A stretch of 64,000 nucleotides of DNA, taken from Nitrospirota bacterium. Its GTDB lineage: Bacteria; JACPQY01. This document shows, piece by piece, positions 43,546 through 59,010 of the stretch; the first letter of the stretch is position 1; each line of letters begins with the position of its first letter. The stretch is taken from positions 57,012 to 121,011 of the forward strand of contig JACPAV010000008.1 in the NCBI GenBank assembly GCA_016180645.1, in the 5' to 3' direction. A program made the translations under genes and the position numbers. Under the pieces are notes generated by a model. The model did not search any database. It had not been told where the DNA came from and saw only the letters and a list, made by a program, of their open reading frames with translations.

Positions 43546-44926
43546 CCGCCTCCGGTTTCATTCGACTGCTCTTGATCAGGTTGATCGCCAGGAGCACCGT
43601 CGAGACGAAAAGCACAACGCCCGATACTGCGCGCGGCACCCAGAACGGCTCCGCGGCCTTGAGTGAATCGATGATCGAGAGGCCCCGCATCCACGCGAAT
43701 CCCTGCATGAGACCCGCGGCCGTATCCGGCACATAGTAGAGGAAGAAAAAGCCGATCAGGGCGAGCCAGAAATGCCATTCGGCCAGGGCACGGGAGGCGA
43801 TGGCCCGGCCGGTAATCCTGGGCCAGACGAAGTAGATGAACGCGAAAATCCACCAGGAGAAAACACCGAACAGCGCCAGATGGGCGTGCGCAACGATCCA
43901 ATCCGTGAAATGGACGACCTTTTGAACGGACAACAGTGCGTGGAATGGCCCCTGCGTGCACGTCATGATGTAGGAGAAGATCCCGAACGTCAGGAAGCGT
44001 AGCGCGATGTCGTCCGCCAGCCGATTCCAGGAGCCCCGCATGGTCGCGAAGAAATTGTACACAACGGTATATACGACGAAGAGGAGCGCGCTCGTGAGGG
44101 GAACGGCCACCACCTGGAGCCACCATGGGATGGGGCTGTAAAAGTAGTGGTGGCTTCCACCGAGGGGATAGAGAAAGGCAAGCGTCCAAAATCCGAGGAG
44201 CGAGAGCTTGTGGCTCGCGATCGGTTTTCGCACAAGCACGGGCAGAAGGTAGTACGCGATCGCCGCTCCCATCGGCGTCACCCACATGCCCACGGCGTTG
44301 TGGATCCAGAGGCCGGAGAGCGCCGCGCCCGCCGCGCCGGGAGCCACGTGCGCCACGATCGTATTGGCCATCACGAAGTTCAGTGCCGTGAAGATAAACG
44401 CCATCACGATGTACCAGAGGGAGACGTACATCGATTTCACGCCTCCTTGGAGCACCGTTCCGACAGTGGAGAGAAGCGCCAAGACGAACGAGGCGGCAAA
44501 CAGCACGTCCGCCCACCACGGGGCCTCGGCATACTCGACGCCCTCGCCATACCCGGCCAGAAGACCGATGGCCCCGGCGGCCAGCGCCACTTGCATGAAC
44601 TTCCGATTGAATTGCGCAACCGGCTCGAGGAAAAGTCCTTTTCCCACCAGCTTCGGCACCGCGTAGAACGTGAAGGCCATGAATCCGTTGGACAACCAGC
44701 CGAAGATCACCGAGTGGGTGTGGAAGAACCGCAACCGACCGTAGTTCAGCCAAGGGACATTCCCCAGAAATTCCGCGGCGGCGGGGGAGGTGAGTCGATA
44801 GGCTTCCGTCAGTCCCGCCATCATTCCAAGAAGAAGCCAAACGAGCCCGGCAACGAGATGGAACTTTACCAGGCCGAGGGACACTTCCGTTCCGGCCTTC
44901 GCGGGCTCAGCGGACGGATTCGCCAT
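43532..44926 (-). CDS. ccoN: cbb3-type cytochrome c oxidase catalytic subunit
   Basis: The 12-helix heme-copper subunit that reduces oxygen. 464 residues with RLRFFHTHSVIFGWLSNG (low-spin heme His), HNAVGMWVTPMGA, the copper-B pair GGSHHYFYSPIPWW, and HFTDWIVAHAHLALFGVFSWW (heme ligands). It is leftward and encoded 6 nt after the YVTN/phosphoesterase gene. No ccoG, ccoH, ccoI or ccoS maturation genes are in the window. Confidence 0.92.
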   Translation of the reverse strand: MANPSAEPAKAGTEVSLGLVKFHLVAGLVWLLLGMMAGLTEAYRLTSPAAAEFLGNVPWLNYGRLRFFHTHSVIFGWLSNGFMAFTFYAVPKLVGKGLFLEPVAQFNRKFMQVALAAGAIGLLAGYGEGVEYAEAPWWADVLFAASFVLALLSTVGTVLQGGVKSMYVSLWYIVMAFIFTALNFVMANTIVAHVAPGAAGAALSGLWIHNAVGMWVTPMGAAIAYYLLPVLVRKPIASHKLSLLGFWTLAFLYPLGGSHHYFYSPIPWWLQVVAVPLTSALLFVVYTVVYNFFATMRGSWNRLADDIALRFLTFGIFSYIMTCTQGPFHALLSVQKVVHFTDWIVAHAHLALFGVFSWWIFAFIYFVWPRITGRAIASRALAEWHFWLALIGFFFLYYVPDTAAGLMQGFAWMRGLSIIDSLKAAEPFWVPRAVSGVVLFVSTVLLAINLIKSSRMKPEADGRG

Positions 44927-50818: not shown

Positions 50819-50947
50819 GATTTCCCCTCCCTTCGCTATTGATGACTCTCCTATTCTACCCCACTCTCCCAACTTCGCCAGCCATCGCCGGCCTCGATTG
50901 AATGCGGTTCAGGGCCAGACGCCATCATCACGCGAAATCGAGGGAAA

Positions 50948-51018
50948 CTGGGAGACTAGGATTCGAACCTAGATAAACGGATCCAGAGTCCGTTGTCCTG
51001 CCATTGGACGATCTCCCA
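50948..51018 (-). tRNA. tRNA-Gln (CTG anticodon)
   Basis: 71 nt on the minus strand. The acceptor stem pairs TGGGAGA with TCTCCCA and the discriminator is G, as in other bacterial tRNA-Gln genes. The anticodon loop is CTCTGGA (anticodon CTG), and the T arm is CTAGG-TTCGAAT-CCTAG. No CCA is encoded. Its first 38 nt lie in the left 39-bp repeat of an integrated element. The 5' end is 8 nt from the integrase stop codon, so it has little or no room for its own promoter. Confidence 0.95.
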
Positions 51019-51019
51019 G
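50981..51019. mobile_element. Left attachment repeat (att) of the tRNA-Gln element
   Basis: A 39-bp sequence identical to 58929-58967. It begins ATCCAGAGTCCG and ends GATCTCCCAG. Identity stops on both sides (G/T before, A/G after). It covers the tRNA from the 5' end through the anticodon, so crossover falls in the 5' half of the gene. Confidence 0.93.
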
Positions 51020-51026
51020 AAATGCG

Positions 51027-52268
51027 TTAGGACGCGACCTTAGCACCAGCCAAGTCCGTTGACAAGGTTCCGTTGATACTTGGTGTGATACTTCGTTCCA
51101 CGGAACCCCCTCCGGCAAGCCGCTCAACGGCACTCTGCTTGTGCGATGGCGACAGGTGCGCGTAGCGTAGGGTCATCTCAATCGTCCGGTGGCCCATTAA
51201 CTCTTTCACGGTGGTCAAGTCAACCCCGGCCATCACAAGACGGCTGGCGAAGCTGTGCCGAAGGCAGTGGAACGTGAAGTCCTCGATCCCCGTCTTGTCG
51301 ATCACATCCTCGAACCACTTGGACACGATCCACTTCCGCCGCCCCTGCCACCGGGGGAACACCGCATGCTTTTGCAGGATGGACGACGGCAAGGCCGCAA
51401 CATTGCCCTTCTCCGTGGGTTGCAACGCGCCCATCCGCTCATCCCGCATCCGCCGGAGGGTTTCCCTCACCACGCGATTCATAGGCACCTGGTAGTTGCG
51501 CCCGCCCTTGGCCTCTTGAACGTCGATCACCCCCGCGGAAAAATCCACATCGCCCCACAGAAGTTCTTTCAGGCCGCTCAACCGGATGCCCGTGTGAAGC
51601 GCCAGCACCACAAAGGGCCTCTCGTCGTCCTTGAGCACCGCGAACACCCTTTTCTCTTCTTCGTCGGACAGGTAGCGGACGCGACGATTCTGCCTCTCCG
51701 GGTAGAACTTCACACCTTTGACGGGGTTCTTTTCCGCCTTCCCGTTTTTCATGGCCAGGTAATAGGCAGACCGTAGGGAAGCCAGGTAGCGGTTGATCGT
51801 GGTCCCCATGCAGGCTTGAGTCTTCCGGTTCTTCAATTTCCGCACCTCGGTCAGCTTCGTTTTCCACGTTTCGATCTCTTGCGCCGTCACCGATCCGGCG
51901 GGTTTCGTTCCAAGGTGTTCGATCCAGTAGCCAAGCCGTTGCACGTCGTCGGCCCAACTCTTCTTGTTCGCCTTCCCCCACGTGATGAAGTCTTCCGCGA
52001 TTTCCTTGAACGACACCGCCCGCCTTGCTCTCACCGCATCCGGCCTGAACTTTCCTTCGACAATCTCGTTCCGGCGTTTTCCGTAAAGCTCGATCGCCTT
52101 CCCCTTCGGCCCCACCCGCTCGCGGTGTAGCTTGCCGTCCCGATCCCGGTAGCGGATGTACCAGACGCCCGTGTTGACCTTCGCCACGGCGGGGACGATG
52201 AGGAAGTCTTCAACGCTGTACTTCACGTACTCGTAGACCCCACGCGGGTTCCTCTCACGCCTTGCCAT
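51027..52268 (-). CDS. int: Tyrosine site-specific integrase
   Basis: 413 residues. An N-terminal arm-binding domain (GVWYIRYRDRDGKLHRERVG) and a core-binding SAM-like domain lead to a catalytic domain with all active-site residues: Arg229 (HTGIRLSGL), Lys254, His334 and Arg337 (HCLRHSFAS), His360 (MGHR) and Tyr369 (LRYAHLS). The C-terminal tail SITPSINGTL is encoded by a 31-bp sequence repeated near the other end of the element. It overlaps the upstream ribbon-helix-helix gene by 14 nt and ends 8 nt before tRNA-Gln, in the same orientation. Confidence 0.95.
   Translation of the reverse strand: MARRERNPRGVYEYVKYSVEDFLIVPAVAKVNTGVWYIRYRDRDGKLHRERVGPKGKAIELYGKRRNEIVEGKFRPDAVRARRAVSFKEIAEDFITWGKANKKSWADDVQRLGYWIEHLGTKPAGSVTAQEIETWKTKLTEVRKLKNRKTQACMGTTINRYLASLRSAYYLAMKNGKAEKNPVKGVKFYPERQNRRVRYLSDEEEKRVFAVLKDDERPFVVLALHTGIRLSGLKELLWGDVDFSAGVIDVQEAKGGRNYQVPMNRVVRETLRRMRDERMGALQPTEKGNVAALPSSILQKHAVFPRWQGRRKWIVSKWFEDVIDKTGIEDFTFHCLRHSFASRLVMAGVDLTTVKELMGHRTIEMTLRYAHLSPSHKQSAVERLAGGGSVERSITPSINGTLSTDLAGAKVAS
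51068..51098. repeat. 31-bp element-internal direct repeat, left copy
   Basis: Identical to 58763-58793 and in the same orientation. It holds two direct copies of GATACTT (GATACTTGGTGT then GATACTTCGTTC). It lies 49 bp inside the left attachment repeat and within the 3' end of int. Such paired short repeats near both ends resemble integrase arm-type sites. Confidence 0.75.
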
Positions 52269-52452
52269 GCTTTCCCCCCTTCGTTTTGAACGGCCTTCGA
52301 CACGTCGGGCATGTTCCGAGAAACGACAACACCGCCCGGCGCATGACTTCGGACGCCGACACGCCCATTTCCTTCGCCGTCCGTCTCACAAGGTCAAGCT
52401 CATTCTCACGGATTTGAAAAGCCGTCAAGGTGTAGCCTTGTTTCTGTTTCAT
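52255..52452 (-). CDS. Ribbon-helix-helix-like small regulator
   Basis: 65 residues: LTAFQIRENELDLVRRTAKEMGVSASEVMRRAVLSFLG resembles a ribbon-helix-helix DNA-binding unit, followed by TCPTCRRPF, a CxxC that may bind zinc. It overlaps int by 14 nt and is transcribed first, so it may act as an excision or transcription regulator of int. Its start lies just downstream of a -10-like TATAAT. Confidence 0.65.
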   Translation of the reverse strand: MKQKQGYTLTAFQIRENELDLVRRTAKEMGVSASEVMRRAVLSFLGTCPTCRRPFKTKGGKHGKA

Positions 52453-52463
52453 GGGGACACGAT

Positions 52464-52487
52464 ATTATAAGCCATTTTATATGTCAA
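52464..52487 (-). promoter_or_regulatory. Candidate promoter or operator of the integrase operon
   Basis: On the minus strand TTGACA (52482-52487) and a perfect TATAAT (52464-52469) are separated by only 12 nt, with an inverted repeat TATAA...TTATA between and over them. The -10 lies 11 nt from the ATG, so any transcript from it would have almost no leader. The short spacing argues against a standard sigma-70 promoter; a repressor operator is equally possible. Confidence 0.35.
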
Positions 52488-52520
52488 GCCCCCCCTTATC
52501 GGAGGCGCGACATCGAACCG

Positions 52521-52772
52521 TCAATCGAGTTCCGCCTCCAGCTTTTCCTGCATTTCAAGGTGGCCCACGAATGTTATCAGGGGCTTGATCTGTTCCGCGT
52601 CCGCCTTGCCCTCCAGCACCGCCCACGCCGTTACCGTGAGGATCGAGCGAGCAGTTTTCACCGCTTGCGTGAAGCGGTCCTTGTCCATGTGGCGCCCAAG
52701 CTCGTCCCACAAGGCGGGAAGGTTCTCCGGCGTCCGCGGAATCTTTCTCGGTCGGCCTCTTCGATGGTTCAT
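52521..52772 (-). CDS. Small hypothetical protein of the element
   Basis: 83 residues with an AT-hook-like start (RRGRPRKIPRTP) and a helical remainder ending HLEMQEKLEAELD. I do not recognise a family. It lies between the ribbon-helix-helix gene and a degraded frame, on the same strand as the rest of the element. Confidence 0.5.
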   Translation of the reverse strand: MNHRRGRPRKIPRTPENLPALWDELGRHMDKDRFTQAVKTARSILTVTAWAVLEGKADAEQIKPLITFVGHLEMQEKLEAELD

Positions 52773-53029
52773 CGTTTTACCTCACAAAACTGAAAAATAT
52801 CCATGGGGAAACGCGACAAAAAGGCCAGATATGGCGTCGAAAATGCCCTTCCGCCCTTGTTTCGGCGCTTCGATTTCATCTCCCGTCATCACGTTCCGCG
52901 TGTTCTTACAGCGGGATACACCGGAAGGAGCACGGTGGGTCTTCAGAAAATACGGCGTGTTTCGATGTGGACGCGCAACGGGAACATACCCCCTCCGTCA
53001 TTTCTCTTGTGGATCGTCTCATCCCCCAC

Positions 53030-53404
53030 CTACGGATTCGGATGTTTGCCCGCACACCCTTTCTGCCCGCCTGGGGGGGCTTGCCGTGATGATCCGCGGC
53101 AGTCTGCGCTCTCCCGCTTGGTGAGGCCAAGGGCGGAGAGGGTGGGGGCATCCGTAAAAGCCGGTCCCGCTTTGTGACCGGCTTTTCCTCTCCCCGGACC
53201 CGGTGCGCCCTTCGCTTTCGGCGTCTCCTTCAGGAACTCGCCCACCTTGCGCAATGCGCGTAGGCGGATCTCTCTCGCGTGGGCCTCAAGGCAACGGATC
53301 GTCCGGCCTGCCCGCCGAAGCCTTGGCGAAGGCGGGTACTCCAAGCGCCCGTCCTTCGCAGTAGCCTTGCTACGGAGGGTGGATCGGCCCTTGGCGTAGC
53401 TCAA
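53030..53404 (-). pseudogene. ParB-neighbourhood-like element protein, probably degraded
   Basis: The middle part, EAHAREIRLRALRKVGEFLKETPKAKG, then PTLSALGLTKRESA, resembles small plasmid or phage proteins found near replication and partition genes. The N-terminal part includes a stretch (PPSPRLRRAGR) encoded by a palindromic repeat, and the expected C-terminal continuation after KRESA is replaced by unrelated, proline-rich sequence, as if frameshifted. 124 codons remain. Function is unlikely to be intact. Confidence 0.5.
53305..53340. repeat. GCCCGCC...GGCGGGT palindrome inside an element gene
   Basis: CCCGCCGAAGCC with its near-complement GGCGAAGGCGGG around a CTT loop. This is a common dispersed palindrome of GC-rich bacteria, unlike the GTAG-tipped family. 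It lies in the reading frame of the degraded gene at 53030-53404. Confidence 0.7.
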
Positions 53405-53443
53405 AGTTGTAGTTCCTTCCCGCCGGTGGTAGGAACCATTCCC

Positions 53444-53656
53444 ATGGCGGCAGAAGAAAGCCGAGATACAAAGAGAATCCGCGAATTGGTGGAAATCTTC
53501 AGACAGCTTGGCCTTGCCGCCGTGATCGGAGGAACGGCGGACGCCGTGGTGGATGGGACTCGCCTCTTGATCGACGTGTTCGGGATTGCGGTGGGGATCA
53601 TCTTTCTTGGAGTCGCCGTTTGGTTGACGGGCAAGGGAAACGGCGATACCCTATAG
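53444..53656 (+). CDS. Small membrane protein of the element
   Basis: 70 residues: a charged N-terminus, one long membrane segment (RLLIDVFGIAVGIIFLGVAVWL) after a helix QLGLAAVIGGTADAV, and a short tail. The ATG at 53444 follows AGGAAC. It and the next small gene are the only rightward genes of the element. The role is unknown; a membrane-active protein is possible. Confidence 0.5.
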   Translation: MAAEESRDTKRIRELVEIFRQLGLAAVIGGTADAVVDGTRLLIDVFGIAVGIIFLGVAVWLTGKGNGDTL

Positions 53657-53658
53657 AC

Positions 53659-53775
53659 ATGGACGCGGCAAGCGCAGTTCTCTTGGGAGTCTTCACGAGT
53701 ATGCTTTTGTTCGCCGTGGGCACTGTCATCTACGTGTCCCGCGTCACCCGCAAGAAACCGACCGTCCAGAACTGA
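53659..53775 (+). CDS. Very small single-pass membrane protein
   Basis: 38 residues: MDAASAVLLGVFTSMLLFAV, GTVIYVSRVTRKKPTVQN. A single membrane helix with a basic C-terminal end, beginning 2 nt after the stop of the preceding small membrane protein, so the two are probably expressed together. Too short for family assignment; the tight spacing is the main support. Confidence 0.45.
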   Translation: MDAASAVLLGVFTSMLLFAVGTVIYVSRVTRKKPTVQN

Positions 53776-53840
53776 CCCCTTTCCCCTCACTTCATCTCCG
53801 GCGAGAGAAAATCTGCTTGAACTCTTCCACCACTCTTTGA

Positions 53841-53976
53841 CCGCAACACCGCAACACTACACCCCTTAAAGGGGGTGTAGCTGTGTAGCGCAACATGTAG
53901 CGCAACATGTTGCACAGCAATAGTTTCAAGCACTTAGCCGAGCGCAACATCCGCGCAACATGGGGGTATGTTGCGC
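53841..53976. repeat. Clustered GCGCAACAT repeats (iteron-like), candidate replication origin
   Basis: Four direct copies of GCGCAACAT (starting 53888, 53900, 53942 and 53953) and one inverted copy (ATGTTGCGC at 53968-53976). Two are in a 12-bp tandem TAGCGCAACATG, and a perfect palindrome GCAACATGTTGC lies at 53902-53913. Further CCGCAACA copies occur from 53841, and a 9-bp stem (CTACACCCC...GGGGTGTAG) follows. The cluster ends 3 bp before the primase-polymerase stop codon. Confidence 0.65.
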
Positions 53977-53979
53977 CCT

Positions 53980-55962
53980 CTACTTCTTGAGCCATTTGCG
54001 GGGTCCTCCGGGGGTGTCTAGGGCGTCGAATTTCCGCCCATCGTCCCGGCTGAAGACGGTTCGGATCGCGCTTTCGGTGATCCCCGTGATCTCCGCGATC
54101 TCCGGGACAGTCTTCGGCCCGTTCTTCAAAGCCATCTCCACCCGCTGCCATTGGGCCAGGCCACCGGCCACGGCTTCCGGCATGGCGTCAAACTCGCTTT
54201 TCTCAAAGGTGATCCGGCCCCCCGTGAATCGGATCGTGAACCCCATCGGAGCTTCAAGCCTGCCCCCGTTGCACTTCCGGTTGAACAAGCCCACCTGGAT
54301 CACGTCCTCGCCGGGGGCCTGCCCGCGTTTCATCTCCCACGTCGCCCGCGCCATGTTGTGCCAGTACCCGGAACCTATCGGCTTCTCCTGGGTGACGTTC
54401 TTCGCCACGTGCGCGATGACGAGGGAGGTCCCGCCGATGAAGCGGACGGCCTCAAAGAACTTCAATGCTCCCTCCGCCGACTCAAGCTCCCCGCCGCTGG
54501 CGGCCCCGGCTGAATCGTACACGATGAACGAATAACCGCCCTCGCCAACAAGCCGCTTGATCTGCCTCCGTTGATCGTACAGGGGACCGATACACCGGCG
54601 GTAGCCAATGGGCGGAAGCCCCTGGTCGGTCACCATCTGCCGAAGGCGGGCCTTGTGTTCGTCCGAATCGGATTCCCAATCGAGATAGAAAGCCTTCCCC
54701 CATGTGTTGCAGGAGTCCATGAGGGGGCCGCATCCCCCTTGATGGGCTACGGCACACGCCAGGGCGAGAAGACTTTTCCCCGTGCCGCCGTCGCCGAAAA
54801 GGATCGTGGGAACACCCAGCGTCACGATTCGATCAATCAACCATCGCGTATCACGTGCCGTCATGGGCGCGTTCAGAAATTCCACCGGGTCACCCGTCTT
54901 GATTCGCTCTATGGCGAGCACGGCCACGCTCTCAAGCATCCCGGCCCAGCCGATCTGTAGCCTCTTCGACAGGTAGTTCACAAGTTGAACCCGCGTCCCG
55001 GTGACAGACAAGTTCGTCCGCACGGGGCCGTGAATCCGTTTCGGCACTCCATCCCCGGTGCCCCGGACCAAAAGTTCAGCGTGAACACCCGTGTTCTCGG
55101 AGTGCACGCCGTCAAGCTCGATTTCGATCTTGTGTTCCGGCCAGGCGAACACCCACGCGCCCCCGCGATCCGAGAAATCGGGCGGTTCCTCGATCCCCAG
55201 CCGTTCCGCTTCGATCCGGTACCGCGTGATGGACTCGATCACGGAGCGAAGCTCCCCGGCGTCCATGGGGGGTCTGCACTTGTCGGCGAAGGGCCGGAGG
55301 ATCGTAGCGATCACGTCCGCCGGGTGCCCCTTGGTGTGGAAGTATCCCGCAAGCCGGGCCGCGTCGGTGTTCCGGGTGCCTTCCGCCGTACCCTTCGCAA
55401 GCAGACGGGATACCCAGTCTGGCGCGTCACCGTTGACCGCCGCTCCCGGATGCGCGTTGCCGTTTCCGTTCTTCCCCTTCAGGGCTTCCGGCAGATTCGA
55501 CAGTACGGCAAGCGGAAGGTCCTTCAGCACGGTGTACGCCTTACCGCCTACCACGCTGGGGCAGGCCATGACGTAGCCCCCATCGCTTCGAACGTCCACG
55601 TGAGGGAGGAACCCCGCCCCAGTATGGAGTTCCGGCGTGTACTTGAAGTACAGGTGCATGCCCTTCGGCGTTTTCACCGTGAAGGTGTCACCGGAGACAC
55701 CGAGCTTCTTGAAGTTCTCCATCCCTTCCGGGCCGTCCAGGTCGATCACGCTGATTCCGCTTACGCTCCCCGTTACAATCGCCATGTTCGGACTTCCATG
55801 GGCGAACCACTTGCGGATGTCCTCCTCGGTGGGGCGTTTCGTCTGAAACGTCTTCCAGTCTACGAGCGGGGGATGTTTCTGACCCTCCCGGATCGGGATG
55901 ACGGCGTACCCTCGCCGGTGAAGTTCAAGCGCGTCCGATAAGATGCTCATTTTTGAGTTCAC
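53980..55962 (-). CDS. Primase-polymerase with C-terminal RepA-like helicase/ATPase
   Basis: 660 residues. An AEP-type primase-polymerase (residues 10-165) has the metal site VIDLDGPEG (Asp74, Asp76), KGMHLYFKY and SDGGYVMACPS. A PriCT-like segment (about 180-250) and a RecA-like ATPase with FGDGGTGKSLLALA (Walker A) and IVYDSAGAA (Walker B) follow, then a winged-helix-like end. It probably primes and unwinds element DNA at a nearby origin. The GTG at 55962 or ATG at 55950 may be the start; either overlaps the frame upstream. Confidence 0.85.
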   Translation of the reverse strand: MNSKMSILSDALELHRRGYAVIPIREGQKHPPLVDWKTFQTKRPTEEDIRKWFAHGSPNMAIVTGSVSGISVIDLDGPEGMENFKKLGVSGDTFTVKTPKGMHLYFKYTPELHTGAGFLPHVDVRSDGGYVMACPSVVGGKAYTVLKDLPLAVLSNLPEALKGKNGNGNAHPGAAVNGDAPDWVSRLLAKGTAEGTRNTDAARLAGYFHTKGHPADVIATILRPFADKCRPPMDAGELRSVIESITRYRIEAERLGIEEPPDFSDRGGAWVFAWPEHKIEIELDGVHSENTGVHAELLVRGTGDGVPKRIHGPVRTNLSVTGTRVQLVNYLSKRLQIGWAGMLESVAVLAIERIKTGDPVEFLNAPMTARDTRWLIDRIVTLGVPTILFGDGGTGKSLLALACAVAHQGGCGPLMDSCNTWGKAFYLDWESDSDEHKARLRQMVTDQGLPPIGYRRCIGPLYDQRRQIKRLVGEGGYSFIVYDSAGAASGGELESAEGALKFFEAVRFIGGTSLVIAHVAKNVTQEKPIGSGYWHNMARATWEMKRGQAPGEDVIQVGLFNRKCNGGRLEAPMGFTIRFTGGRITFEKSEFDAMPEAVAGGLAQWQRVEMALKNGPKTVPEIAEITGITESAIRTVFSRDDGRKFDALDTPGGPRKWLKK

Positions 55963-56248
55963 TGATTGAAACTAACAGCCAGTCCACCGCCGCGTGGAGG
56001 TTGGCTTGAATCGTATGATCCCGCCGGAGCCGCGCCCCGCATTCCGCGATCTTTCCCACAGCCTGGGAAAGCTCCTCGGCAATCCAACCCTCCGGGGTCC
56101 GGCGTTCGGAAAGTGCAATCCCCGTCATCCAAGAATCGAAAGGAGCAGACACCGAAACGCTTTCAACATTCGCCGCTGCCTGAAGTGATGAAGCGCCAGA
56201 ACGCGGTAGTTCTTCGACACATCTAAGCTCATCGATGCGCCAAGCCAA
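55925..56248 (-). CDS. Possible small coupled protein upstream of the primase
   Basis: A frame of up to 107 codons from a TTG at 56248, with the C-terminal part AVGKIAECGARLRRDHTIQANLHAAVDWLLVSISELKN looking like real coding sequence. It overlaps the primase start by 38 nt and the end of the helix-turn-helix gene by 20 nt. I do not recognise it; the start codon is uncertain. Confidence 0.35.
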   Translation of the reverse strand: MAWRIDELRCVEELPRSGASSLQAAANVESVSVSAPFDSWMTGIALSERRTPEGWIAEELSQAVGKIAECGARLRRDHTIQANLHAAVDWLLVSISELKNEHLIGRA

Positions 56249-56483
56249 GGGGCATCCAGTCGCGGGGACAGCCGGCGTCGATCCAGAGTGCGAGAAGGTC
56301 AAGACGATACCGAACCGTCCTGCTCCCGCCGGGGTGGACAATCAAACACGCGGGTATCCGTCCTCGGTAGTGGAGTTGATACAACGTGCGATGCGTAAAG
56401 CCGAGTACCTTTGCCGCTTCTCTCGCTGATCCCAATTGAATCATACTGCTCAAGAGTCTACACCCGCGTAGAATCGCGGTCAA
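56229..56483 (-). CDS. Helix-turn-helix protein, excisionase/AlpA-like
   Basis: 84 residues with MIQLGSAREAAKVLGFTHRTLYQLHYRGRIPACLIVHPGGSRTVRYRLDLLALWID, a MerR-type DNA-binding domain of the excisionase/AlpA kind. Such proteins steer excision or activate int. It lies upstream of the primase, away from the integrase end. The start could be the ATG at residue 14. Confidence 0.7.
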   Translation of the reverse strand: MTAILRGCRLLSSMIQLGSAREAAKVLGFTHRTLYQLHYRGRIPACLIVHPGGSRTVRYRLDLLALWIDAGCPRDWMPLGLAHR

Positions 56484-56550
56484 TGACTATCTGTCACTGT
56501 TACCGCGACAAAAGAGAGGGTGGTATTTGTCGCGGTAACGTAGGGGGGGG

Positions 56551-57465
56551 CTAGTCCGGTGGGGGAAAGAACTTGGAAGCGCCGGTTTGAAATCTGTTGA
56601 CTTGAACGCTTCGTTGCAACGCTCTTGCGGCGCTTCCCTTGGTCGAAATCCCTCGCTGATTCGTGAACATCGGCGCAAGCAGATGCAGAATCAACCCCGA
56701 CATCGAACGTTTTGGAGTTCTTCCCTTCTTTCCCTGACCCTTCGGGGTCGGATCGAGCCAATCCTTGATTTCGTCTGTCATGGTCGGCGCAAGGTCCGTG
56801 TTTGGAAAAGAAGCCAGCAACGCGGTTTCCCACCGTGGGTCTTTTCTTTGGCTCTTGTAGACCCCTTTCGGCATGGGCGGGAAGAGAGGGGATATGTGCT
56901 GTTTCAGTGTCCAATATGCCGTCGCCACAGCGACGTGAAAGTCTTTCGGTGTGTCAGGCTTTCTCTTCGGTAGCTGAAACTTGGACTCAAACAGCAATTT
57001 GAAGCGAGAAATCTTTTCCGATCCATTTTCGGCGTCCATAACCTCACCGACAAGCTCCCGGAACCGCTGCAATAGAACGGGACCGCTCATCTTCCCGGCG
57101 TGATTGCGGACGAATGCAAGGAAAGCGTCACCGATGGTGCGTCCTTCCGGTGGAAACGTATTTCTCAAATCTCTCTCCAGGCTTGGGAATACCCCCCGCA
57201 GGGGGTTCGGGATTCTGTCCCTTCGTGCCGAGTGCATTTCTCCATAGAGTGTTCTCGCGGTAGTCGGCAAAATGCAGGGTTGATTGTTCCAATTCGCCTT
57301 GATGTAGCTTTCCGGGGTCCACTCGGCGCGGCACCGGGCAAGACTGTTTACGACATCCTCACGATCCCGGTTTTCTTTCCTGCGCCGAGCATCCTCCGTG
57401 AAACGCGGTTCGATGTCGTCGTTTCTTGGCTCCCCATCCGGGGGCGTGAAATCCTTTTCCGGCAT
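56551..57465 (-). CDS. Element protein of unknown function, 304 residues
   Basis: Mostly soluble, basic and helical: WTPESYIKANWNNQPCILPTTARTLYGEMHS, then GPVLLQRFRELVGEVMDAENGSEKISRFKLLFESKF and a lysine-rich end. I recognise no domain. The frame is open to 57669, but GGAAGG lies upstream of the ATG at 57465 and the part above it is a low-complexity Arg/Ser run. It lies between the protease and the excisionase-like gene. Confidence 0.55.
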   Translation of the reverse strand: MPEKDFTPPDGEPRNDDIEPRFTEDARRRKENRDREDVVNSLARCRAEWTPESYIKANWNNQPCILPTTARTLYGEMHSARRDRIPNPLRGVFPSLERDLRNTFPPEGRTIGDAFLAFVRNHAGKMSGPVLLQRFRELVGEVMDAENGSEKISRFKLLFESKFQLPKRKPDTPKDFHVAVATAYWTLKQHISPLFPPMPKGVYKSQRKDPRWETALLASFPNTDLAPTMTDEIKDWLDPTPKGQGKKGRTPKRSMSGLILHLLAPMFTNQRGISTKGSAARALQRSVQVNRFQTGASKFFPPPD

Positions 57466-57653
57466 TCGTCGTTCCTTCCTTTCAGCCCGGCGCGAGTTGG
57501 GAGACACGCTCCGGCCTTTGTTCTCCTCCACGCCCTTCGCTTCATTCCCGGCAACCGATTCCCGTCCGGTCCCGGCCTTCCGTCTCCTGGGCTTTCCTAT
57601 GCTCACCCTTGTGGCATGGGCTTGAGTTGCAGAACGCGAGCGGGATCTGTTCA

Positions 57654-58622
57654 CTATTTCGGGCACCAAGGTGCATCTTGGAGAGCCTGAGTTGAGTTGG
57701 CCAAGTTCGATTCGACATGACTTGAGGGAATCGCAAAATTGATGTTTTGGGAATCGACCAAAGAGTAGGATGCAATCCCGATCACCTGCCCATCTTCGGT
57801 GATAACGGGGCCTCCACTTGAACCGGGAGAAATGGGTGCAGTAATCTGAATGACATCAATCCCATGAACCATCTTCCGTCCGGCGACAATTCCGTCGGAT
57901 ACCGTCGGTGACAACCCTGATTCGCGGCCACCGAGGGCCGAGAGTTCCGCGGCTCTCGGAAACCCAATGACATATACCTTCTGCCCTGCACGAACGATTG
58001 TCTTTCCCATCACTCTTGCGTACTGTTCGGGATCTAGACCTAGACCCATGTCTGAGTCACCCAGAGATAACGTGTGAAGATATTTTGCAAGAGCGTCGGA
58101 AAATAAACTGCCCGTGAGGACCTCAGACCACAATTGAGTATTTTCGGATGATGTCTCCGCCCGACTAACGGCCAGGATCACAAGATCCTCCGATCTACTT
58201 CCATATGTGAACCCACTTAACTTCAGCCTGATTCCATCAGACCGAGCTATAGCGATCTGGTCCGGCCGGCAAAACCCGTCCAGGACGTGGTAGCTCGTGA
58301 CAAGGTAGTTTGTTGCAAAGAAACCCCACCGAAACCGTTCCTTCGTCTTCCTCATCTGTTCGCGCATGGAGTCGGCAAATGGGTTGGCGATCATGAAACC
58401 TGATCCGGTTCCTTTGGGCGTGCTCACCAGAAATGTGGCTTTTATTGCTCGATCAATTACCTGCTCAATTTTCTTTTCCTCACCTGTCGCGGCCACGGTA
58501 CCGATGGTGATCGCCAAGGGGATCATCGACAGGCGCAATAACCACCGCTTCTGAACTCCGTGCGGGCCAGCAGGGCCGCACCTGCCCACGCCATACTTAC
58601 CTCTTTCCGAACGCTTCACCAC
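57654..58622 (-). CDS. Secreted trypsin-like serine protease
   Basis: 322 residues. A signal-peptide-like segment (RWLLRLSMIPLAITIGTVAATG, about 26-47) precedes an S1C/DegP-like protease domain with the catalytic triad: His112 (VTSYHVLDG), Asp146 (SEDLVIL) and Ser269 (SPGSSGGPVI). No PDZ domain follows. It should act in the periplasm or outside. It is the first minus-strand gene at the right end of the element and looks like cargo. The start at 58622 leaves a 25-residue positively charged leader; a later Met may be the true start. Confidence 0.85.
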   Translation of the reverse strand: MVKRSERGKYGVGRCGPAGPHGVQKRWLLRLSMIPLAITIGTVAATGEEKKIEQVIDRAIKATFLVSTPKGTGSGFMIANPFADSMREQMRKTKERFRWGFFATNYLVTSYHVLDGFCRPDQIAIARSDGIRLKLSGFTYGSRSEDLVILAVSRAETSSENTQLWSEVLTGSLFSDALAKYLHTLSLGDSDMGLGLDPEQYARVMGKTIVRAGQKVYVIGFPRAAELSALGGRESGLSPTVSDGIVAGRKMVHGIDVIQITAPISPGSSGGPVITEDGQVIGIASYSLVDSQNINFAIPSSHVESNLANSTQALQDAPWCPK

Positions 58623-58928
58623 GGAACTCCTACGCCCATTGTCGGGGCATCCCTGAAATCGTCACGGACGTGTGTGTATCGGGGGGAAAGCAATGACCTT
58701 GTGGCGATCCACGGGAAAGGTCCCGCTTGGTGTTGCCGGGGGGGGGGGGTGCCTTCTGCTACTTCCGTTGATACTTGGTGTGATACTTCGTTCATTGAAA
58801 AGCATTGTACAGCGTTGAACAGAGGGAACAAGGCCGCTCCCATTTATGCACGATCTCACGGGGTGTTACTGCTAAATCGAAGTACAGCGTAGAACGGCGA
58901 ATAACAGGATTGACAGGGTGTCCACCCT
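58623..58928. other. Right-end non-coding region of the element
   Basis: Holds the right copy of the 31-bp internal repeat and a run of 12 G at 58738-58749. No open frame of useful length has family similarity. Frames that cross it toward the activase gene are read-through of the attachment site. Confidence 0.6.
58763..58793. repeat. 31-bp element-internal direct repeat, right copy
   Basis: Identical to 51068-51098. It contains GATACTTGGTGT and GATACTTCGTTC in tandem and lies 135 bp inside the right attachment repeat. Outside the 31 bp the two copies differ completely, so it is not part of a second integrase gene. Confidence 0.75.
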
Positions 58929-58967
58929 ATCCAGAGTCCGTTGTCCTGCCATTGGACGATCTCCCAG
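58929..58967. mobile_element. Right attachment repeat (att), tRNA-Gln 5' half
   Basis: Exact copy of 50981-51019. It reads, on the minus strand, as the first 38 nt of tRNA-Gln after one extra C, with nothing of the tRNA 3' half, and is therefore the stub left by integration. It faces a candidate promoter at 58983-59010. Confidence 0.93.
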
Positions 58968-58982: not shown

Positions 58983-59010
58983 AGGGTAGCGTTTTCCCAC
59001 CTTTTTTCAA
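58983..59010 (-). promoter_or_regulatory. Candidate native tRNA-Gln promoter, now separated from the tRNA
   Basis: On the minus strand TTGAAA (59005-59010) and TACCCT (58983-58988) are 16 nt apart, followed by a GC-rich discriminator and, 16 nt after the -10, the 5' end of the tRNA stub. The -10 is a weak match to consensus. If active it would transcribe the tRNA half and then run into the element, whose main genes lie in the same orientation. Confidence 0.45.

Follow-up and report, generated by a model that had tools for sequence, protein, structure and literature searches.

What kind of mobile element enters a tRNA gene, carries its own replication protein, and encodes neither virion nor transfer genes? 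This question is raised by a 64,000-nucleotide stretch of a Nitrospirota bacterium (hereafter the window; positions 57,012 to 121,011 of contig JACPAV010000008.1, assembly GCA_016180645.1), in which an earlier note, made from the sequence alone, had pointed to a compact integrative element beside a tRNA-Gln gene. The genome is a draft of 65 contigs, estimated to be 97% complete. We favor, at a probability of roughly 0.55, the interpretation that this locus is a minimal replicating integrative element that would depend on a helper for its transfer.

The element measures 7.95 kb between two exact 39-bp direct repeats (50981-51019 and 58929-58967), which can be extended to 42 bp with 41 of 42 positions identical; the chance expectation for any one 39-mer match in 64 kb is approximately 4e-19. 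The first repeat lies within an intact tRNA-Gln(CTG) gene on the minus strand (50947-51019; ARAGORN, Rfam tRNA model at 64.7 bits, and predicted fold). Because this gene is read from 51019 to 50947, the repeated block is its 5' half (nt 1-39, ending just beyond the anticodon loop), which places the element upstream of the tRNA. The whole genome contains one complete copy of the tRNA-Gln sequence and one copy of nt 1-39 alone, and joining the flanks without the element restores a single complete tRNA-Gln gene. The present gene combines a 3' half of original host DNA with a 5' half from the element, the latter being the attachment (att) core copy at the integrase end (50981-51019, tRNA nt 39 to 1); the far core copy (58929-58967, minus strand) is the stranded original 5' half. 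This is the arrangement of a genomic island at a tRNA gene (an intact tRNA at one end, a cognate fragment in the same orientation at the other, and a tyrosine integrase between), and it belongs to the 5'-half tRNA integrase class, defined by an att block that covers the tRNA from its 5' end to the anticodon loop and by an element located upstream. Most of the element genes share the direction of tRNA-Gln. An insertion into a tRNA gene usually duplicates the 3' part and leaves the tRNA its own promoter; the 5'-half case is the reverse. Islands with 5' fragments are known but rare, accounting for 159 of 3,919 islands in Islander (PMC4383910); they resemble the present element in having a split tRNA and a displaced 5' fragment, and they constitute a class of att configuration rather than an element family. 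In the single other genome of the phylum that was examined, tRNA-Gln is surrounded by different genes, so this locus was set aside as an empty site, showing neither occupancy nor the ancestral site.

The integrase gene (51027-52268, minus strand) encodes 413 aa with a Phage_integrase domain (PF00589; E = 7e-29) and the candidate catalytic residues R229, H334, R337, H360, and Y369, read from the sequence and an alignment. Two small genes may encode directionality factors. The first (52255-52452, minus strand; 65 aa) encodes a ribbon-helix-helix (RHH) protein that scores barely above the cut-off (RHH_1; 20.6 bits) and overlaps the start of the integrase gene by 14 nt. The second (56229-56483, minus strand; 84 aa) encodes an HTH_17 protein similar to excisionases and AlpA (PF12728; 30.0 bits, above the cut-off; E = 6e-7; phrog_66 at 7.6e-6); a perfect 14-bp inverted repeat, a probable operator, is located at 56499-56539, between this gene and that of a 304-aa protein. 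A second exact repeat pair, of 31 bp, lies inside the element (51068-51098 and 58763-58793). Each copy holds TGATACTT twice at a 12-bp period, and all four occurrences of this octamer in the 64 kb are found there. These doubled repeats look like integrase arm sites, with a putative P' site within the 3' end of the integrase gene (51068-51098) and a putative P site at the other copy (58763-58793). The attP motif of helper-embedded phage-inducible chromosomal islands (PICIs; PMC10111431) is likewise a doubled repeat with a 12-bp period near the att site; unlike the present case, it is a different motif, and PICIs target late genes of prophages.

The replication gene (53980-55950, minus strand) encodes a 656-aa protein comprising Prim-Pol (PF09250; E = 3e-29), PriCT_1, AAA_25 (PF13481; E = 3e-15), and a C-terminal helix-turn-helix (HTH). 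The Prim-Pol and AAA_25 domains, like that of the integrase, exceed the Pfam cut-offs. The Prim-Pol motifs (DLD, H, and DGGY) and the Walker A and B motifs (GDGGTGKS and IVYDS) are present, as read from the sequence. Just behind this gene are five GCGCAACAT iterons (53888-53976), of which 0.44 copies would be expected in the window and for which none of 100 shuffles reached five. Four of the iterons are direct and one is inverted; together with two copies of ACCGCAACA and a palindrome, they occupy a strongly structured stretch (53839-53976; DNA fold z = -4.96) that is a probable replication origin. Searches for relatives of the whole protein (GTDB contigs, IMG/VR, phages, and plasmids) returned domain-level matches only, at approximately 41% identity or less. 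At the level of sequence, then, the boundaries, the att type, and the intact gene set are established. The earlier note had taken the exact repeats, a full tyrosine integrase, an excisionase-like protein, and a replication protein beside repeats as the marks of a complete site-specific integrative element, and each of these observations holds, the main genes being full length.

A related integrase in the same genome supports the att assignment. This protein is approximately 40% identical to the window integrase and is encoded beside a tRNA-Met(CAT) gene on another contig (G000:C6), in an element of about 16.8 kb (100938-117829; L022/L023) whose far end carries a 31-bp repeat of the tRNA-Met 5' half. 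This sister element contains hsdR/M/S-like type I restriction genes and lacks a Prim-Pol gene; a third, degenerate tRNA fragment (78%) is found approximately 100 bp past its far repeat. Taken together, the putative arm sites and the sister element confirm the element boundaries. Across the genomes, four 5'-half elements with related integrases were verified by their att repeats: the window element (tRNA nt 1-39), the G000:C6 element (nt 1-37), G225 (tRNA-Arg nt 1-43, with the fragment inverted and 23 kb away), and G496 (tRNA-Arg nt 1-41, with copies 10 kb apart). Doubled repeats with a 12-bp period occur near both ends of the G496 element and, in weaker form, of the G000:C6 element. In G225, the tRNA-Arg (G225:C90, 20842-20918) and the 5'-half fragment (44065-44107) have opposite orientations (L081, L082, and L085), which suggests an inversion within or around the element or an assembly fault. 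The 10-kb G496 element (G496:C24:5953-16042; L208) encodes a phage major-capsid-like protein, with other virion genes not obvious, and is a possible capsid-bearing satellite or prophage remnant.

To place these integrases, a tree was built from 38 integrases encoded beside a tRNA, with the side of entry mostly read from tRNA orientation and checked by att repeats in four cases. The window integrase and its sister fall in a clade of 10 (support 99/97), of which 7, including that of G225, are on the 5' side and which has 3'-side members too; the G496 integrase lies outside this clade, in another 5'-side group. The 5'-side state requires 5 changes on the tree versus 10.3 in shuffled data, and none of 500 shuffles gave as low a number. 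Two further loci were discarded. One, in an unrelated genome (G172:C79:2683-7556; L018), has the same gene order (HTH, Prim-Pol, integrase, and tRNA-Arg) but is on the usual 3' side, without an att fragment in the 14 kb examined, and is regarded as a parallel case rather than a relative; the other, a 47-bp tRNA-like repeat in G086, consists of two 3' fragments and has no intact tRNA.

The 5'-side entry bears on the expression of the host tRNA. The 5' end of the intact tRNA-Gln is 7 bp from the integrase stop codon, and a candidate element-borne tRNA promoter, TTGTCA-17-TAAGGT (approximately 51037-51065, minus strand), can be placed in the end of the integrase gene, although 2% of random 70-mers score equally. 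A better sigma-70-like site, TTGACA-17-TATCGT (52459-52487, minus strand), precedes the RHH and integrase genes and, beyond them, the tRNA; three such sites occur in the region versus 2.0 expected in shuffles. At the far end, the candidate original host tRNA promoter, TTGAAA-16-TACCCT (approximately 58983-59010, minus strand; equalled by 3.4% of random 70-mers), is now aimed into the element, and in the rebuilt empty site it stands upstream of the complete tRNA-Gln. No terminator was predicted between the stranded tRNA 5' half and the protease gene that follows it. This layout points to a promoter swap in which the host tRNA-Gln would be read from the element and the host tRNA promoter would read into the element; we infer the swap from the layout, since the promoters are matches to the consensus only. 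The same search gave mixed results for the other 5'-side elements, with a strong site in G225 (TATAAT 14 bp upstream) and none comparable in C6 or G496, so the element-borne promoter is proposed with caution. Between the bare tRNA 5' half and the protease gene (58622-58929, minus strand) come a hairpin, ATAGGGTGGACACCCTGT, and a leader of roughly 300 nt, and this region could yield a half-tRNA transcript.

The earlier note had also stated that the element has no capsid, terminase, portal, or conjugation gene and that it resembles a satellite or an integrative plasmid rather than a prophage. Domain scans of the element proteins agree: no capsid, terminase, or portal family was detected with Pfam or PHROGs; no relaxase, FtsK/TraB, or type IV secretion system (T4SS) gene was detected with Pfam, PHROGs, and NCBIfam; and the FtsK/SpoIIIE transfer domain (PF01580) of actinomycete integrative and conjugative elements (AICEs) was absent in the Pfam scan. 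The bracket of satellite or integrative plasmid is the right one.

The earlier note could not match the gene content to a named type. Elements with a minimal set of integrase, AlpA/HTH_17 protein, and primase have already been described (PMC10803314 and PMC3218068), yet by the criteria tested the present one is neither of the two types concerned. Among phage-inducible chromosomal minimalist islands (PICMIs) of Vibrionaceae, an integrase, AlpA (with PF12728 accepted), and a primase suffice for a 6-kb helper-dependent satellite without packaging genes (PMC10803314). The window element resembles PICMIs in size (6 to 8 kb), in its integrase, AlpA-like HTH protein (PF05930/PF12728 in PICMIs), and primase, in its direct-repeat ends and accessory genes, and in the absence of capsid and packaging genes; its RHH gene is similar to PICMI iolg in position only, as a small gene overlapping the integrase gene. 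It differs in its primase (Prim-Pol/AAA_25 versus DUF3987 [PF13148] or DUF5906 [PF19263]) and its site (tRNA-Gln versus fis); the host is not a Vibrio, and no helper is known here. With the AICEs of actinobacteria (PMC3218068), it shares a tyrosine integrase at a tRNA, a xis-like gene, and a Prim-Pol replication module, whereas it lacks the FtsK/SpoIIIE transfer gene and uses the 5' half of the tRNA rather than the 3' end. Archaeal pTN3-like integrases also take the tRNA 5' half and leave transcription of the tRNA to the integrase promoter, a situation that a review describes as uncommon in bacteria (PMC8371274); the archaeal integrase is suicidal and split on integration (PMC8371274 and PMC5495485), whereas here the gene is whole and its relatives are bacterial. 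Because the PICMI plan fits while the primase and the fis site do not, and the AICE modules fit without the transfer gene, we file the locus as an integrative element inserted at a tRNA gene; it would work like a PICMI or an AICE-like element and is a member of neither.

The other genes that the earlier note had listed (two tiny membrane proteins, a 304-residue unknown, and a secreted protease) were all recovered. The membrane proteins, of 70 aa (53444-53655; no family in Pfam or PHROGs) and 38 aa (53659-53775), are encoded on the plus strand. The 304-aa protein (56551-57465, minus strand) is an orphan: Pfam, PHROGs, NCBIfam, and PADLOC returned no match, plasmids gave no relative, phages gave only a match at chance level (E = 0.8), and neither IMG/VR nor 386 genomes yielded a convincing relative. 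An AlphaFold (AF2) model made without an alignment was uninformative (pLDDT of 40). The protease gene (57654-58622, minus strand) is cargo and encodes a trypsin-like serine protease with an intact catalytic triad and a signal-like N terminus (PF13365, Trypsin_2, E = 7e-16; NCBIfam htrA, E = 6e-12); a role in defense was rejected, as its PADLOC matches reflect merely the trypsin fold of reverse transcriptase (RT)-protease systems. The remaining open reading frames (ORFs), all on the minus strand, are a plausible one of 83 aa without a family in Pfam or PHROGs (52521-52772), a small one of about 100 aa with an uncertain start between the HTH_17 and Prim-Pol genes (55925-56248), and a decayed-looking one at 53030-53404, which has no match in Pfam or PHROGs and which we take to resemble a shortened common phage or plasmid protein. 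The last is fused to the palindromic GCCGAAGCCTTGGCGAAGGCGG, present once in the window and possibly an insertion in the decayed gene resembling a repetitive extragenic palindrome (REP) or a miniature inverted-repeat transposable element (MITE).

For the helper-dependent element that we favor, we infer a cycle of excision, circle replication, promoter swap, and helper dependence. The integrase, with the HTH_17 or RHH protein as directionality factor, would recombine attL with attR at the anticodon loop, which would release a circle and restore the host tRNA-Gln with its own promoter; the circle would be replicated from the iteron origin by the Prim-Pol protein. While integrated, tRNA-Gln would be read from the promoter ahead of the RHH and integrase genes or from one in the end of the integrase gene, and the host tRNA promoter would read into the protease end. 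Spread would need a helper; the likeliest is a phage able to package the replicated DNA, as for PICMIs, with a conjugative system or natural uptake as the other routes. Several observations weigh against this interpretation. A resident helper was not seen: phrog_2, the sole family tested for terminases, found none in the 97%-complete genome (11 of 14 genomes were positive in the control), and PF02534, the sole family tested for T4SS coupling proteins, also found none (control, 5 of 14). The orphan and the protease are uninformative on whether the dependence is on a phage or a plasmid, the kinship of the replication protein to phage and plasmid proteins is limited to its first third, and, given the decayed ORF and two weak promoters, the element could have decayed in part and be immobile.

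The strongest alternative, which we regard as possible at well below even odds, is an integrative plasmid or a tra-less AICE relative that moves by mobilization in trans or by natural uptake and not by phage; tra-less AICE relatives are considered to be remnants or mobilizable elements in PMC3218068. The combination of a tyrosine integrase, a xis-like HTH protein, and Prim-Pol (PF09250) is exactly the AICE replication and integration module (PMC3218068), the Prim-Pol N-terminal domain matches plasmid proteins, and the RHH protein is weakly similar (E = 0.02, far below the cut-off) to MobA/MbpA, which are accessory proteins of mobilization. Against it stand the missing FtsK/TraB, relaxase, and T4SS genes in the element, the missing PF02534 coupling protein in the genome, and a host not shown to be an actinobacterium. 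A decayed remnant of a larger prophage, which would have lost its late genes and kept the integrase, regulators, and replication gene, is improbable: related integrases do occur in viral contigs of 35 to 45 kb and, in L129 and G496 (read by eye), have phage capsid-like genes as neighbors, and the ORF at 53030-53404 looks decayed, but the element retains intact att repeats, putative arm sites, catalytic integrase residues, Prim-Pol motifs, and protease triad, its main genes are full length, late-gene remnants were not found, and random deletion would rarely spare so compact a complete set. An immobile cargo island, consisting of an integrase and accidental genes as in the restriction-bearing sister island at tRNA-Met, is very improbable, given that the window element owns a replication module and origin-like iterons.

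Beyond the helper-dependent element that we favor, we consider it doubtful, though worth stating, that the locus represents a family of small integrative elements with Prim-Pol that has so far gone unrecognized in an under-sampled phylum, and for which 5'-side tRNA entry and the promoter swap would serve as an addiction and expression device. Nearly all tRNA-targeting elements keep the tRNA under its own promoter; here, if this idea is true, the host tRNA would depend on the integrase transcript, and the host tRNA promoter would drive element genes. Integrases that use the 5' half have received rare, scattered mentions in the literature. The four att-verified 5'-half members and their close 3'-side relatives make side-switching by integrases open to testing, as is the question of whether ownership of a tRNA promoter stabilizes an element. 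The element itself illustrates how little an integrative replicon may require.

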